Made by a program: the position numbers and the translations under genes. A model generated the notes under the pieces. It was given only the letters and a program-made list of their open reading frames with translations, did no database searches and was not told the DNA's origin. Below, one piece after another: positions 44,239-48,252 of a stretch of 64,000 nt of DNA. The stretch is from Chitinophaga pinensis (GTDB lineage Bacteria; Bacteroidota; Bacteroidia; Flavobacteriales_D; Crocinitomicaceae): the NCBI GenBank assembly GCA_945883825.1, contig CAMCYF010000001.1:1-64000 (forward strand). Direction: 5' to 3'. Every line of letters starts with the position of its first letter. Within the stretch, counting starts at the first letter, position 1.

Positions 44239-44306
44239 TCAAGTTTTAAAAATAAGTTTTTAGAACTTTTTTTTAGTATCATTGTTCTAGATTTTAAACT
44301 GTGAAC

Positions 44307-45287
44307 ATGTTTGTATTAGATTATTTTAATAGACTCAACAAAAATTTTCTTTCTGAAAAAACAAAAATTAAGAGTGAAAGAATAATCTTAAATATAGCTA
44401 TTGCAAGCTTTGCATTGCATCTCGCAATTATTTTTTTAGTTGATTTTGGAATTATTAAAGTGGATTCCTCAGATCTTTTGAGTAATCCAATCGTTGCGAT
44501 TTATACACCATTTTCTTTTATACTATTGTATGAAGTATATCTTTTAATATATTATCTCCCTAAATCATTTACTACATACATAAGTAAGCAGTATGAAATT
44601 ATTACTCTAATTGTAATAAGACGATTGTTTAAAGATCTTTCAAATTTAAAGCTTACTTCAGATTGGTTTAGTAATAAGCAGGATTTACAATTTACCTACG
44701 ATTTAGCAACTTCAATACTCTTGTTTTTTTTGATTTACCTTTTTTATGTCCAAAGTAAAATTCGATTTACTCCTGCTAAACAAGATGAAAATCATGTTGG
44801 AGCTATTTCTTCGTTTATTAAAATCAAAAATCAAATAGCAACTTTTTTAGTTCCTGTATTTCTAATATTAGCAATTTATTCTCTATCTAATTGGTTATTA
44901 AACATTTTTTTACCTAAAGAAGATTTAATTAATTCCTTTACGAATATCAACAATATCTTTTTTGAGCAATTCTTTACTATCTTAATTGTCGCTGATGTTC
45001 TTTTGCTTCTTTTCTCTTTATTTATAACAGACGAATTTCACAAAGTAATTCGAAATTCAGGATTTATTATTTCTACTATATTAATTAGAATATCATTTTC
45101 CATTAGTGGAGGCTTAAATAATTTATTAATTATTAGCGCAATTACCTTTGGACTTTTAATTCTGCTTATCCACAATAAATTCGAAAGGAAAATTTCTAAT
45201 GAATCTTCTAAGCTTTATTTTTTTTTATTACTGATGTTTATTAGTCTTTTAAATCATACTTATTGTAAAATTTACCAAAATTTATAA
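44307..45287 (+). CDS. Multi-pass membrane protein of unknown function
   Basis: A 326-residue protein with about eight hydrophobic segments (for example IILNIAIASFALHLAIIFLV, TSILLFFLIYLFYV and FFTILIVADVLLLLFSLFI) separated by short charged loops. No signature of a known transporter or enzyme was recognised. The ATG at 44307 is preferred to a GTG two codons earlier. It lies about 70 bases after the M14 peptidase and 127 bases before the proteorhodopsin gene, which has its own promoter, so joint transcription with the rhodopsin is possible but not required. Codon and base use look like its neighbours. Confidence 0.75.
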   Translation: MFVLDYFNRLNKNFLSEKTKIKSERIILNIAIASFALHLAIIFLVDFGIIKVDSSDLLSNPIVAIYTPFSFILLYEVYLLIYYLPKSFTTYISKQYEIITLIVIRRLFKDLSNLKLTSDWFSNKQDLQFTYDLATSILLFFLIYLFYVQSKIRFTPAKQDENHVGAISSFIKIKNQIATFLVPVFLILAIYSLSNWLLNIFLPKEDLINSFTNINNIFFEQFFTILIVADVLLLLFSLFITDEFHKVIRNSGFIISTILIRISFSISGGLNNLLIISAITFGLLILLIHNKFERKISNESSKLYFFLLLMFISLLNHTYCKIYQNL

Positions 45288-45414: not shown

Positions 45415-46122
45415 ATGTTATTATCTGTTTTACCTATTGCAACTGACAACTATGTTGCTTTTACGTTCTTTATCGGAACAATGGCTATGATGGCCGCTTC
45501 AGTATTTTTCTTTTTTGAGCTAAGTAACACTAAACCAGAGTGGAGAACTTCCATTCTTGTTTCTGGCTTAATTACTTTCATTGCAGCAGTTCACTACTAC
45601 TACATGAGAGATTACAACCTTAGTACTGGTGAATCACCAATCTTCTTCCGTTATGTGGATTGGATTCTTACAGTTCCATTAATGTGTGTTGAGTTTTATT
45701 TAATCACCAAAAAAGCGGGTGCGAAAATTAACTTGTTATGGAAATTAATTTTTGCTTCTGTAATTATGTTAGTTACTGGTTATTTTGGAGAAGCAGTAGA
45801 CAAAGGTCATGCAGCAATGTGGGGTCTATTTTCAGGTTTAGCTTACTTCTACATTGTTTATGAAGTATGGATGGGAGATGTTGCAAAACTTTCTAAAGCG
45901 AGCAGTCCTTCAGTTCAAAAAGCAGTAAACTCTTTATTGAAGTTTGTTGTTATTGGTTGGGCTATTTATCCATTAGGTTATATGATAGGAACTGCTGACG
46001 GACAGTGGTATTCTTTTATGGCAGGATGGGCAAGCATGGACATCATTTATAACATAGGTGATGCTGTAAACAAAATTGGTTTTGGTTTAGTAATTTATGC
46101 ATTGAGCAGAAATAACGAATAA
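45415..46122 (+). CDS. Proteorhodopsin, light-driven proton pump, probably green-absorbing
   Basis: A seven-helix retinal protein of 235 residues. Key residues match proton-pumping proteorhodopsin: Arg79, proton acceptor Asp82 and donor Glu93 in RYVDWILTVPLMCVEFYLI, His60 next to the acceptor (AVHYYYMRDY) and the retinal-binding Lys220 in helix G (IGDAVNKIGFGL). The spectral-tuning position is Met90, as in green-absorbing flavobacterial forms; blue forms carry Gln. The DTE-type motif, rather than NQ or NTQ, means a proton pump and not a sodium or chloride pump. It has its own promoter, a leader of about 50 bases and a terminator. The gene that makes retinal follows directly on the same strand. 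Confidence 0.98.
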   Translation: MLLSVLPIATDNYVAFTFFIGTMAMMAASVFFFFELSNTKPEWRTSILVSGLITFIAAVHYYYMRDYNLSTGESPIFFRYVDWILTVPLMCVEFYLITKKAGAKINLLWKLIFASVIMLVTGYFGEAVDKGHAAMWGLFSGLAYFYIVYEVWMGDVAKLSKASSPSVQKAVNSLLKFVVIGWAIYPLGYMIGTADGQWYSFMAGWASMDIIYNIGDAVNKIGFGLVIYALSRNNE

Positions 46123-46144: not shown

Positions 46145-46181
46145 AAAGAGGCTAATACGTTAAGTTTAGCCTCTTTTTTTT
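46145..46181 (+). terminator. Intrinsic terminator between proteorhodopsin and crtY-blh
   Basis: Stem AAAGAGGCTAA with TTTAGCCTCTTT around a loop of about 9 bases, followed by T residues. It ends most rhodopsin transcripts 23 bases after the stop, so crtY-blh is probably expressed at a lower level by read-through or from its own start. Confidence 0.9.
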
Positions 46182-46215: not shown

Positions 46216-48252
46216 TTGGAAGGCCCAACAATTGAGAAAAGTAAGGTATATGATTTTTTATTCATCGGGTTGGGAGCGAGTAATAGTTTAATTTTATTAT
46301 CCCTACTCAAAAAAAAGTGTCTATCGAATAAAAAAGTTGCAATTATTGAGGCAGATGATAAAGATACAAATGATAAAACCTATTGTTTTTGGGCTGCTCC
46401 TTCTGATTCAATTGTACTTGAACTTGCACCACTAATTTCTCATTCTTATACTAAAATTGAGGTAAATCAGTCTACATCTCAAAACATTGAAGACCAACCT
46501 TATCATTACATTAAAAGTATTGATTTATATAATCATACTCAAGCAGCATTGAAAATAGACAATGCAACTATTTTTAGAGATACTGTTAATCATATTTCTT
46601 CTGAAGGTGATTTCTATACTGTTTCTTCCAATAGCACAAATTATTTAGCATCTTATATTTTTGATAGCCGTCCGCCATCTCTTAGTGATTTAGGTCAAAA
46701 AGAAATTTATCTGCATCAATCATTTTATGGCTTACACATTAAGTGCGAAAATGAGGTTTTTAATGAAGATGAATTTGAAATGATGAACTTTAAAGTGGAG
46801 CAGGATGCTTTTACACAGTTTATCTATATTCTGCCATTTTCTAAAAAAGAGGCTTTAGTTGAACTCACTAGATTTGGCGAAAAAAAAATAGATGTTGCTT
46901 ATGCCAAGGAGATTTTAAATAAGATTATTTCAAAAGATTACGGGAATTATGAGGTTTTAGCAGATGAAGATGGTTGTATTCCAATGACTACTTTTAGAAA
47001 TTCAGCGAATTCTTCCGAAGGAATTTTGCATACTGGTGCCCGAGCAAATTTAATAAAGCCAAGTACTGGTTATGCATTTAAAAGAATGCATGCTTTTGCA
47101 AATAAAACATCAGAAGAAATTCTCAAGGGTAATTATAAGCAATTCAATAAGCTTTCACTTGAAACCAAAAAAAGATTTCGTTTGTATGATAGACTTTTAT
47201 TAATAATTCTACTTTATTGGCCAGGAGAAGGAAAAAAAATATTTACACAGCTCTATAAAAAGCAAGGTATCCATACAATTTTTTCATTTTTAGACGAGAA
47301 AACAACACTTCTTCAAGAATTAAAAATCTTTGCCTCTTTACCTATTCTTCCATTTCTAAAAGCAGTTTATATTTTTTTTAAAAAATATAATTATCTACGT
47401 TATATTATTGCATTTTTAGCTGTTGTTATTTATTGGGTTTTTGATTATTTCACACTTTTAAGTCCGCTAATTATTAGTTTAATTTTAATCCCTGGGTTTT
47501 TATATGTTGGGATTCCCCATGGTGCCTTAGATCATATACTAATTGCGAGAAAAGAAAAGACCTTGTTACAATTTTGTATTAAGTATTTTTTAATCATGGG
47601 AATCTATTTTATAGTGTGGCAATTTTTCCCCATGTTATCTTTATTATTTTTTATTTTATTTTCTGCTTTTCACTTTGGAGAATCTGAATTAGAAGAGGAA
47701 GGATTGAATTTATCTTCTCTTCTTTTGTATGCTAAAGCCTTTATTTTTGGCTTGTGTATTATATTATTTATAATTTTTACACATCACACAGAATCGAAAG
47801 AAATAATATCATTGTTTAATGTAAACTTTCCTCTGTCTCTTCGTATTTTTGATCAGTCAATTTATGCCGTCTGGATTGCATCGATTTCTTTCCTATATAT
47901 TTTAATTCAAATTCTACTTTCAAAAAAATATGCACACTTTGGATTACTATTTCTATTGCTTTTGGGAATTAAAACACCTTTAATTTTAGCTTTTGGACTT
48001 TATTTTATATTTCAACATAGTCTTAACGCATGGGGGCATTTACAGCATGGTCTAAAAATGGATGGCTTTACATTGTATAAAAAGGCTTTACCATTTACAC
48101 TGTCAGCAATTTTTTTTCTCTGCGCTATGCTATTTTATAATTCAGTTGCTGTTTTAAATCTAAATGAATTTATTGCTACACTTTTTATTTTTTTATCCTG
48201 TATTAGTTTGCCACATTTTTTACTTATGCATCTTTTTTATAAGGTTAAATAG
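46216..48252 (+). CDS. Fusion of lycopene beta-cyclase (CrtY) and beta-carotene 15,15'-dioxygenase (Blh)
   Basis: A single 678-residue protein. Residues 1 to about 385 are a flavin-dependent lycopene cyclase: the dinucleotide-binding start YDFLFIGLGASNSL, the acidic IIEADD strand and the later GARANLIKPSTGYAFKRM, which is typical of CrtY. From about 395 there are around eight membrane helices of the Brp/Blh family with the metal-ligand histidines His435 and His440 (GIPHGALDH), His486 (FHFGESE), His601 and His608 (QHSLNAWGHLQHG) and His667 and His672 (LPHFLLMH). Inferred: lycopene to beta-carotene to retinal by one polypeptide for the rhodopsin upstream. The only usable start is the TTG at 46216; no ATG precedes the conserved part. 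Confidence 0.95.
   Translation: MEGPTIEKSKVYDFLFIGLGASNSLILLSLLKKKCLSNKKVAIIEADDKDTNDKTYCFWAAPSDSIVLELAPLISHSYTKIEVNQSTSQNIEDQPYHYIKSIDLYNHTQAALKIDNATIFRDTVNHISSEGDFYTVSSNSTNYLASYIFDSRPPSLSDLGQKEIYLHQSFYGLHIKCENEVFNEDEFEMMNFKVEQDAFTQFIYILPFSKKEALVELTRFGEKKIDVAYAKEILNKIISKDYGNYEVLADEDGCIPMTTFRNSANSSEGILHTGARANLIKPSTGYAFKRMHAFANKTSEEILKGNYKQFNKLSLETKKRFRLYDRLLLIILLYWPGEGKKIFTQLYKKQGIHTIFSFLDEKTTLLQELKIFASLPILPFLKAVYIFFKKYNYLRYIIAFLAVVIYWVFDYFTLLSPLIISLILIPGFLYVGIPHGALDHILIARKEKTLLQFCIKYFLIMGIYFIVWQFFPMLSLLFFILFSAFHFGESELEEEGLNLSSLLLYAKAFIFGLCIILFIIFTHHTESKEIISLFNVNFPLSLRIFDQSIYAVWIASISFLYILIQILLSKKYAHFGLLFLLLLGIKTPLILAFGLYFIFQHSLNAWGHLQHGLKMDGFTLYKKALPFTLSAIFFLCAMLFYNSVAVLNLNEFIATLFIFLSCISLPHFLLMHLFYKVK

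Follow-up and report, generated by a model that had tools for sequence, protein, structure and literature searches.

A crtY-blh fusion gene next to proteorhodopsin in a Crocinitomicaceae genome that carries a second lycopene cyclase gene

The fused gene and its surroundings

The window, by which we mean the whole stretch of 64,000 nucleotides analyzed here, contains a single forward-strand reading frame (46216 to 48252; 678 codons plus stop) with domains of both a CrtY-type lycopene cyclase and a Blh-type beta-carotene dioxygenase. The frame has no internal stops and sits within a 277,672-base contig. Its exact start is uncertain, since it opens with a TTG codon and no in-frame ATG precedes the CrtY domain. 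An earlier note on this DNA had recognized the two enzymes in one polypeptide from short peptide motifs. Each of the quoted motifs is present in the translation, and both domains were found to be full length and over their Pfam cut-offs.

The CrtY half (residues 13 to 383; 46252 to 47364, forward strand) has a FAD-type Rossmann fold and matches the Pfam profile Lycopene_cycl (PF05834) with an E value of 7.5e-41 (140.9 bits versus a cut-off of 23.4), spanning profile positions 1 to 378 of 380. The two NCBIfam lycopene cyclase models, TIGR01790 and TIGR01789, also align to it almost end to end, with scores below their cut-offs (83 versus 209.5 bits and 64.3 versus 215.2 bits, respectively). Because of these scores, it is filed on its profile matches as a CrtY-like member of PF05834 and not as the NCBI equivalog. 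The domain of the CarR-type cyclases (PF18916, TIGR03462) gave no match in the fused protein at an E value of 0.01. A sequence search for solved relatives returned none that was convincing, the best being a thioredoxin reductase (E 0.066). The fold search with the whole model was filled by matches to the CrtY half and bears on that half alone; residues 8 to 387 resembled a geranylgeranyl-reductase-like protein (Z 24.2, 352 residues, rmsd 4.0).

The Blh half (residues 429 to 675; 47500 to 48240, forward strand) is a multi-helix domain that covers nearly the whole of the BCD profile PF15461 (E 2.9e-34; 119.4 bits versus a cut-off of 28) and also exceeds the cut-off of the NCBIfam Blh model TIGR03753 (131.1 versus 95.25 bits). 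Residues of presumed functional importance were conserved in both halves, in alignments whose rows include duplicates and near-copies. E216, the glutamate of the ELT motif to which we ascribe a catalytic role in lycopene cyclase, was present in every CrtY row, whether fused (113 of 113) or unfused (48 of 48), and K281, Y324, D325 and F358 (the last within the FLDE motif at residues 358 to 361) were invariant across the same rows. At G18 and G20, which belong to the FAD-type dinucleotide motif, and at E216, no alternative letter was seen among the 110 to 113 fused and 44 to 48 unfused rows aligned there. Likewise, four histidines of the Blh half (H435, H486, H601, H667), which we take to bind iron, were invariant in all 112 fused rows; H486, H601 and H667 also occurred in 35 of 35 unfused Blh rows, and H435 in all 32 of these with a letter at that position.

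The junction between the halves (47365 to 47499, forward strand) is compact in its predicted secondary structure. In the structure model, just three residues separate the C-terminal CrtY helix (residues 377 to 390) from the first Blh helix (394 to 412), with no long linker between them. From FLDE to the GxPHG motif, 105 of 106 distinct fused frames had a spacing of 72 to 77 residues; in the remaining frame (L070) it was not measurable by motif. The model, built from 53 aligned sequences, had a mean pLDDT of 91.8 and a pTM of 0.87, and such a high pTM over 678 residues suggests that the two halves are held in a fixed arrangement.

The fused gene was said in the earlier note to lie directly after proteorhodopsin, and indeed a rhodopsin gene of 235 amino acids (45415 to 46122; Pfam PF01036, E 1.7e-41) precedes it on the same strand, at a distance of 93 bases. 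It is the sole rhodopsin match in the genome. Its D, T and E residues occupy what we take to be the proton-pump positions, and a Met stands at the presumed spectral-tuning position, which suggests green absorption.

The interval between the rhodopsin stop and the fusion start contains a terminator-like hairpin (-14.2 kcal/mol) followed by a run of eight T (together 46145 to 46181, forward strand). A hairpin-plus-T element of -10 kcal/mol or lower, mostly with other letters, was found at 44 of the 52 distinct loci with rhodopsin upstream, although these loci are related and the 44 are not independent cases; base-shuffled windows gave such hairpins 0.5 times on average and at most twice (50 rounds). 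The element looks as a terminator would. Because it stands in between, the place of the fused gene after rhodopsin need not mean simple co-transcription, and partial read-through would allow the cell to produce more rhodopsin than enzyme. A simple promoter scan gave 16 sites versus 16.9 in shuffles, and a simple terminator scan gave four sites within genes (1.1 expected). The hairpin was not among these four, in our reading because the scan permits only shorter loops.

Upstream of rhodopsin lies a gene for a hydrophobic, membrane-type protein of 328 amino acids (44301 to 45287, forward strand), for which no Pfam match exceeded the cut-off. Of the 188 loci fetched, 15 contain a homologue, or 13 once two same-place pairs are discounted. 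These homologues mostly adjoin rhodopsin or crtY-blh and also occur near the unfused pairs L162 and L169, making this protein a candidate partner of the rhodopsin system.

Spread and origin of the fused gene

A search for proteins spanning both enzyme families, as proposed in the earlier note, recovered the fusion in 48 of 200 genomes of the window's family, these being classed as fused by reading the match rows of the family search. In total, 63 of the 200 genomes (the window's own included) matched the fused protein. Among the 48, the fused frame is broken by contig ends in G180 and G195, with the halves on two contigs; G021, G057 and G186 hold partial fusions, and the fusion of G072 is without its first 53 residues. 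The 15 matching but non-fused genomes comprise nine with a stand-alone CrtY, four with a stand-alone Blh and two with relics (G046, G160). G057 is a tenth genome with a stand-alone CrtY, which it carries besides its fusion. For two of the stand-alone cases (G029, G044), the contig breaks off on the side expected to hold Blh, and a fusion is possible there.

Beyond the family, five of 395 genomes in a sample of the phylum were fused (the window's own counted); at most three candidates were scored per genome in this sample, and separate blh genes may be missed. Of 14 genomes from f23, the other fusion-bearing family, six matched, with five fused frames and one Blh piece at a contig end. Among named genome contigs, both halves lay in one frame at 79 of the 80 named loci, a rate that is biased toward fused genes because these loci, the best 80 of at least 436 relatives, were ranked by match; the family and phylum rates are less biased. 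Some of the 79 are incomplete, either because the contig ends within the gene (L063, L065) or through damage (L050, L062). At L004/L050, the fused gene is without the first 53 CrtY residues in a genome without detected rhodopsin, and at L062 the frame stops early within the Blh half though the match continues.

Pooling of all loci, with nine exact duplicates dropped and L067 left out as a locus without a fused frame, gave 105 distinct fused proteins, counting that of the window. Their identity to the window's protein falls as low as 33 to 35%. A chance frame or an assembly error, the latter a worry of the earlier note, is ruled out by this number of distinct proteins. The titles of the fused loci are mostly those of uncultured Bacteroidota (Flavobacteriales, Crocinitomicaceae, Cryomorphaceae, Chitinophagaceae), and going by their names many come from lakes, ponds and sea water. 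Mislabelled bins probably account for two further titles, Parcubacteria (L034) and Streptomyces griseus (L088). L034 falls within the fused clade in the trees; L088, a near-copy of another row, was left out of them.

Mobile sources were also considered. A scan of viral contigs yielded 25 pattern matches and zero relatives, and only 17 of 72,556 plasmid records matched, every one confined to the CrtY half; a viral and a plasmid origin were rejected.

Separate trees were made for each half (quick type, with SH-aLRT support only), leaving out window duplicates and rows with at least 72% identity to a kept row. In the Blh tree (99 rows), 70 fused rows and the split locus L067 formed one branch with a support of 99, and in the CrtY tree (100 rows), 66 fused rows and L067 formed one branch with a support of 98. 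As the fused rows form one clade in the tree of each half, the fusion is, by this evidence, of single origin in this sample. Fused genes of f23, which belongs to another class, nest within the fused clade at two separate positions in each tree (L114; L115), and the fusion has thus apparently moved between classes later. In the CrtY tree, the fused branch adjoins L167, from a genome with separate, overlapping crtY and blh genes. In the Blh tree, however, L167 lies away from the fused clade on a long branch. It may therefore not be the true sister of the fused clade, which leaves the choice of an ancestral pair uncertain.

Separate crtY and blh genes are arranged much as a precursor of the fusion would be. 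At all 23 loci with separate genes (L067 included), the two lie on the same strand, and at 21 they are adjacent, with crtY first and often overlapping; the exceptions are L163, with 590 bases between the genes, and L169, with the genes 6.8 kb apart. At L167, the CrtY tail (34 residues) and the Blh lead (43 residues) add up to 77, a common spacing among fused frames. The fusion thus looks like an end-to-end join of neighbouring genes with no residues lost or gained. The reverse step may be represented by L067, the one split among the 80 named loci, where an ATGA stop-start overlap stands at the junction (1570 to 1610) beside a run of A; this split can be a real fission or a sequence error.

Such an arrangement raises the question of whether the joined state matters at all. 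A stop lost between two overlapping genes would produce a neutral fusion, with two enzymes that work independently and gain nothing in transfer, and the gene order at the separate loci, the undiminished spacing at L167 and the renewed split at L067 are all what this account would predict. Nevertheless, the joined state has been kept in the 105 distinct proteins despite their divergence, with a junction of nearly constant length, and a single split was seen among the best 80 of at least 436 relatives, a ranking that favours fused genes. The Blh half of L167 also falls outside the fused clade, unsure as its placement on a long branch is. We regard neutral fusion as a serious but not the favoured account of the join.

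Rhodopsin and the second lycopene cyclase

Rhodopsin was present in 43 of the 48 fused genomes versus 13 of the 152 other family genomes (Fisher's test, P = 1.9e-26, ignoring kinship); weak matches in G075 and G153 were not counted, and G046, among the 13, has merely a fragment. The five fused genomes without detected rhodopsin are G021, G072, G127, G158 and G189. In G021 (59% complete) and G158 (610 contigs), the absence may reflect gaps. In contrast, G127 (contig C71; 99% complete) and G189 (contig C18; 93% complete) carry a full-length fusion (L194 and L195, respectively) with rhodopsin undetected, which disfavours a strict link between the two genes.

At the 105 distinct fused loci, where rhodopsin neighbours were detected by motif, rhodopsin lay immediately upstream of the fusion in 52 and immediately downstream in 11. 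It was elsewhere in the fetched stretch in three and outside it in 39, and some of these 39 carry rhodopsin elsewhere in the genome (e.g., G191). In four of the 200 family genomes, rhodopsin occurs together with a stand-alone Blh while CrtY has no match, from which it follows that retinal does not require the fusion. Further rhodopsin genomes have neither the fusion nor a stand-alone Blh. The two relics indicate that the module can decay, in G046 along with rhodopsin. In G046 (L192, 1861 to 2407), CrtY residues 4 to 79 are followed 49 bases on by rhodopsin residues 151 to 235, as a deletion would leave them, and in G160 a Blh tail of 56 residues is left.

The genome of the window encodes a second lycopene cyclase, a CarR/CrtYcd protein of 228 amino acids on contig C18 (PF18916, E 1.4e-33; TIGR03462 also matches). 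A CruF-like gene and a gene for a CrtZ-like protein of 159 amino acids adjoin it, with overlaps of one to four bases. The CruF-like protein exceeds the cut-off of PF04240, while the NCBI CruF models score below theirs. No Pfam or NCBIfam model matched the 159-amino-acid protein, whose histidine pattern we take to be that of CrtZ. A search for CrtZ through PF04116 had given a single find, a protein of 335 amino acids resembling sterol desaturase; the crtZ-like gene emerged from inspection of the genes around CrtYcd. A CrtD desaturase over its NCBI cut-off is encoded on contig C1.

Genes for a CrtI-type desaturase and CrtB lie on contig C11, apart from the fusion. The same-strand row there (L149, 7488 to 12574) comprises an ECF-type sigma factor, crtI, crtB and idi-, queD- and photolyase-like genes, the last three named by eye, and is perhaps a light-stress unit. 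Another locus (L191, 5019 to 5354) encodes a small protein with about six VDYESQA-like repeats after a signal-like start.

This pigment set covers six of the eight genes of the flexixanthin pathway of Algoriphagus, which leads to a monocyclic pigment (crtB, crtI, cruF, crtD, crtYcd and crtZ, found or likely here), with crtE and crtW outside the comparison; the available text on that pathway differs from the present case in mentioning no CrtY-Blh retinal branch (PMC10784355). Another report describes the single-peptide CrtYcd of Algoriphagus as a monocyclase (PMC2889829), and by analogy the CrtYcd of the present genome is predicted to be monocyclic.

CarR matches were found in 174 of the 200 family genomes (171 over the cut-off). 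The 48 fused genomes include 46 with such a match, the exceptions being G021 (59% complete) and G195. Of the 10 stand-alone-CrtY genomes, a CarR match was absent in six and only weak in two (G029, G044), compared with absence in 20 of the 190 other genomes (P = 4e-4, ignoring kinship). Exclusion of G029 and G044 leaves six of eight stand-alone-CrtY genomes without CarR. These counts point to a tendency of stand-alone CrtY to replace CarR, while fused CrtY is added to it.

It could be argued that the cyclase half also feeds general pigments and that the fusion is the main source of beta-carotene in the cell. CrtY is common in Bacteroidota, with 122 of the 395 phylum genomes matching the fusion profile and the matches listed being mostly CrtY-only. 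However, the wide presence of CrtYcd in the family and in nearly all fused genomes, its position in this genome beside crtZ- and cruF-like genes, and the fact that the fused gene tracks rhodopsin instead make a general pigment role unlikely.

A proposed route from lycopene to retinal

The earlier note had proposed that the fusion favours retinal over free carotenoid. This part of its reading fits the present results, and the second, unrelated lycopene cyclase adds weight to it, while the passage of beta-carotene from one half to the other, through which the note explained the effect, is at this stage a guess. As the cell has another enzyme that can act on lycopene at the first step, the fused cyclase looks dedicated to retinal, and the fusion is probably a private supply line for the light-driven pump.

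We infer the two enzyme activities, the product of the second cyclase and an internal hand-over of beta-carotene along the following lines. Lycopene from CrtB and CrtI would enter two routes, one to hydroxylated monocyclic pigments and one to retinal. On the retinal route, the fused protein would act as one membrane enzyme. The CrtY half would close both ends of lycopene to give beta-carotene, whose central bond the Blh half would cleave, each molecule then supplying two retinals to the proteorhodopsin encoded nearby. CruF, CrtD, CrtYcd and CrtZ would serve the pigment route, probably as a separate set, with monocyclic, hydroxylated products expected. With the cleaving enzyme present wherever beta-carotene is made, little of it would be lost to CrtZ. 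A variant of this scheme concerns the number of ends closed. A monocyclic CrtY was reportedly described in 2003, going by the title of a reference by Teramoto. Since the accessible text of PMC2889829 states that monocyclic CrtY enzymes exist, closure of one end alone is conceivable, and the fused CrtY may yield a single retinal per lycopene.

Overall, a dedicated branch from lycopene to retinal that serves proteorhodopsin, is insulated from the pigment pathway and is largely gained and lost with rhodopsin is the explanation that we hold with reasonable confidence. It is supported by gene content and slightly weakened by the two nearly complete genomes (G127, G189) with a fusion and no detected rhodopsin. 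The stronger proposal is substrate channelling, in which a rigid CrtY-Blh unit passes beta-carotene straight to the cleavage site, hidden from CrtZ and the membrane pool, within such an insulated line gained and lost with rhodopsin. Physical channelling is plausible and compatible with the compact junction, its fixed length and the confident whole-chain model, and the fixed junction would permit transfer inside the protein; as a complete account, however, we put it forward tentatively. That one half is catalytically dead and acts only as an anchor or partner, as the damaged relatives L004/L050 and L062 might be taken to suggest, is very improbable given that the conserved residues of both halves are invariant in 112 to 113 fused rows and mostly common to the unfused enzymes.

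The fusion shares its families, its crtY-then-blh order and its link to rhodopsin with the PR photosystem cassette, in which crtY and blh are separate; it differs in forming one polypeptide and in having crtB and crtI elsewhere. Among joined proteins, Thecamonas trahens has a four-domain CrtI-CrtB-CrtYc/d-Blh protein, according to the available text of PMC10016063, with a lycopene cyclase ahead of a C-terminal Blh domain as here. It belongs to a eukaryote, however, uses the unrelated CrtYc/d cyclase and includes CrtI and CrtB. The cyclase fusions of fungi and thraustochytrids likewise join consecutive carotenoid enzymes, but combine a CrtYcd-type cyclase with phytoene synthase or desaturase, and in the accessible parts of these two sources Thecamonas alone has an attached Blh domain in such eukaryotic fusions (PMC2889829, PMC10016063). 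No description of a bacterial CrtY-Blh fusion was found among the papers listed from the open-access full text of PMC, which mostly excludes subscription papers and preprints, nor is one described in the available text of PMC5877348, PMC4915679 and PMC9680020. The Thecamonas four-enzyme protein, with its different cyclase, is the nearest published case within that literature. Protein databases may well list the domain pair.

In the organisms described here, the last two steps to retinal would be carried by one protein that has been kept across deep divergence, alongside a second, unrelated cyclase. To our knowledge, how retinal supply is kept separate from other carotenoids in rhodopsin-bearing bacteria has rarely been addressed. 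The fusion makes the insulation of the retinal branch directly testable, and it may also serve as a single-gene part for producing retinal from lycopene.
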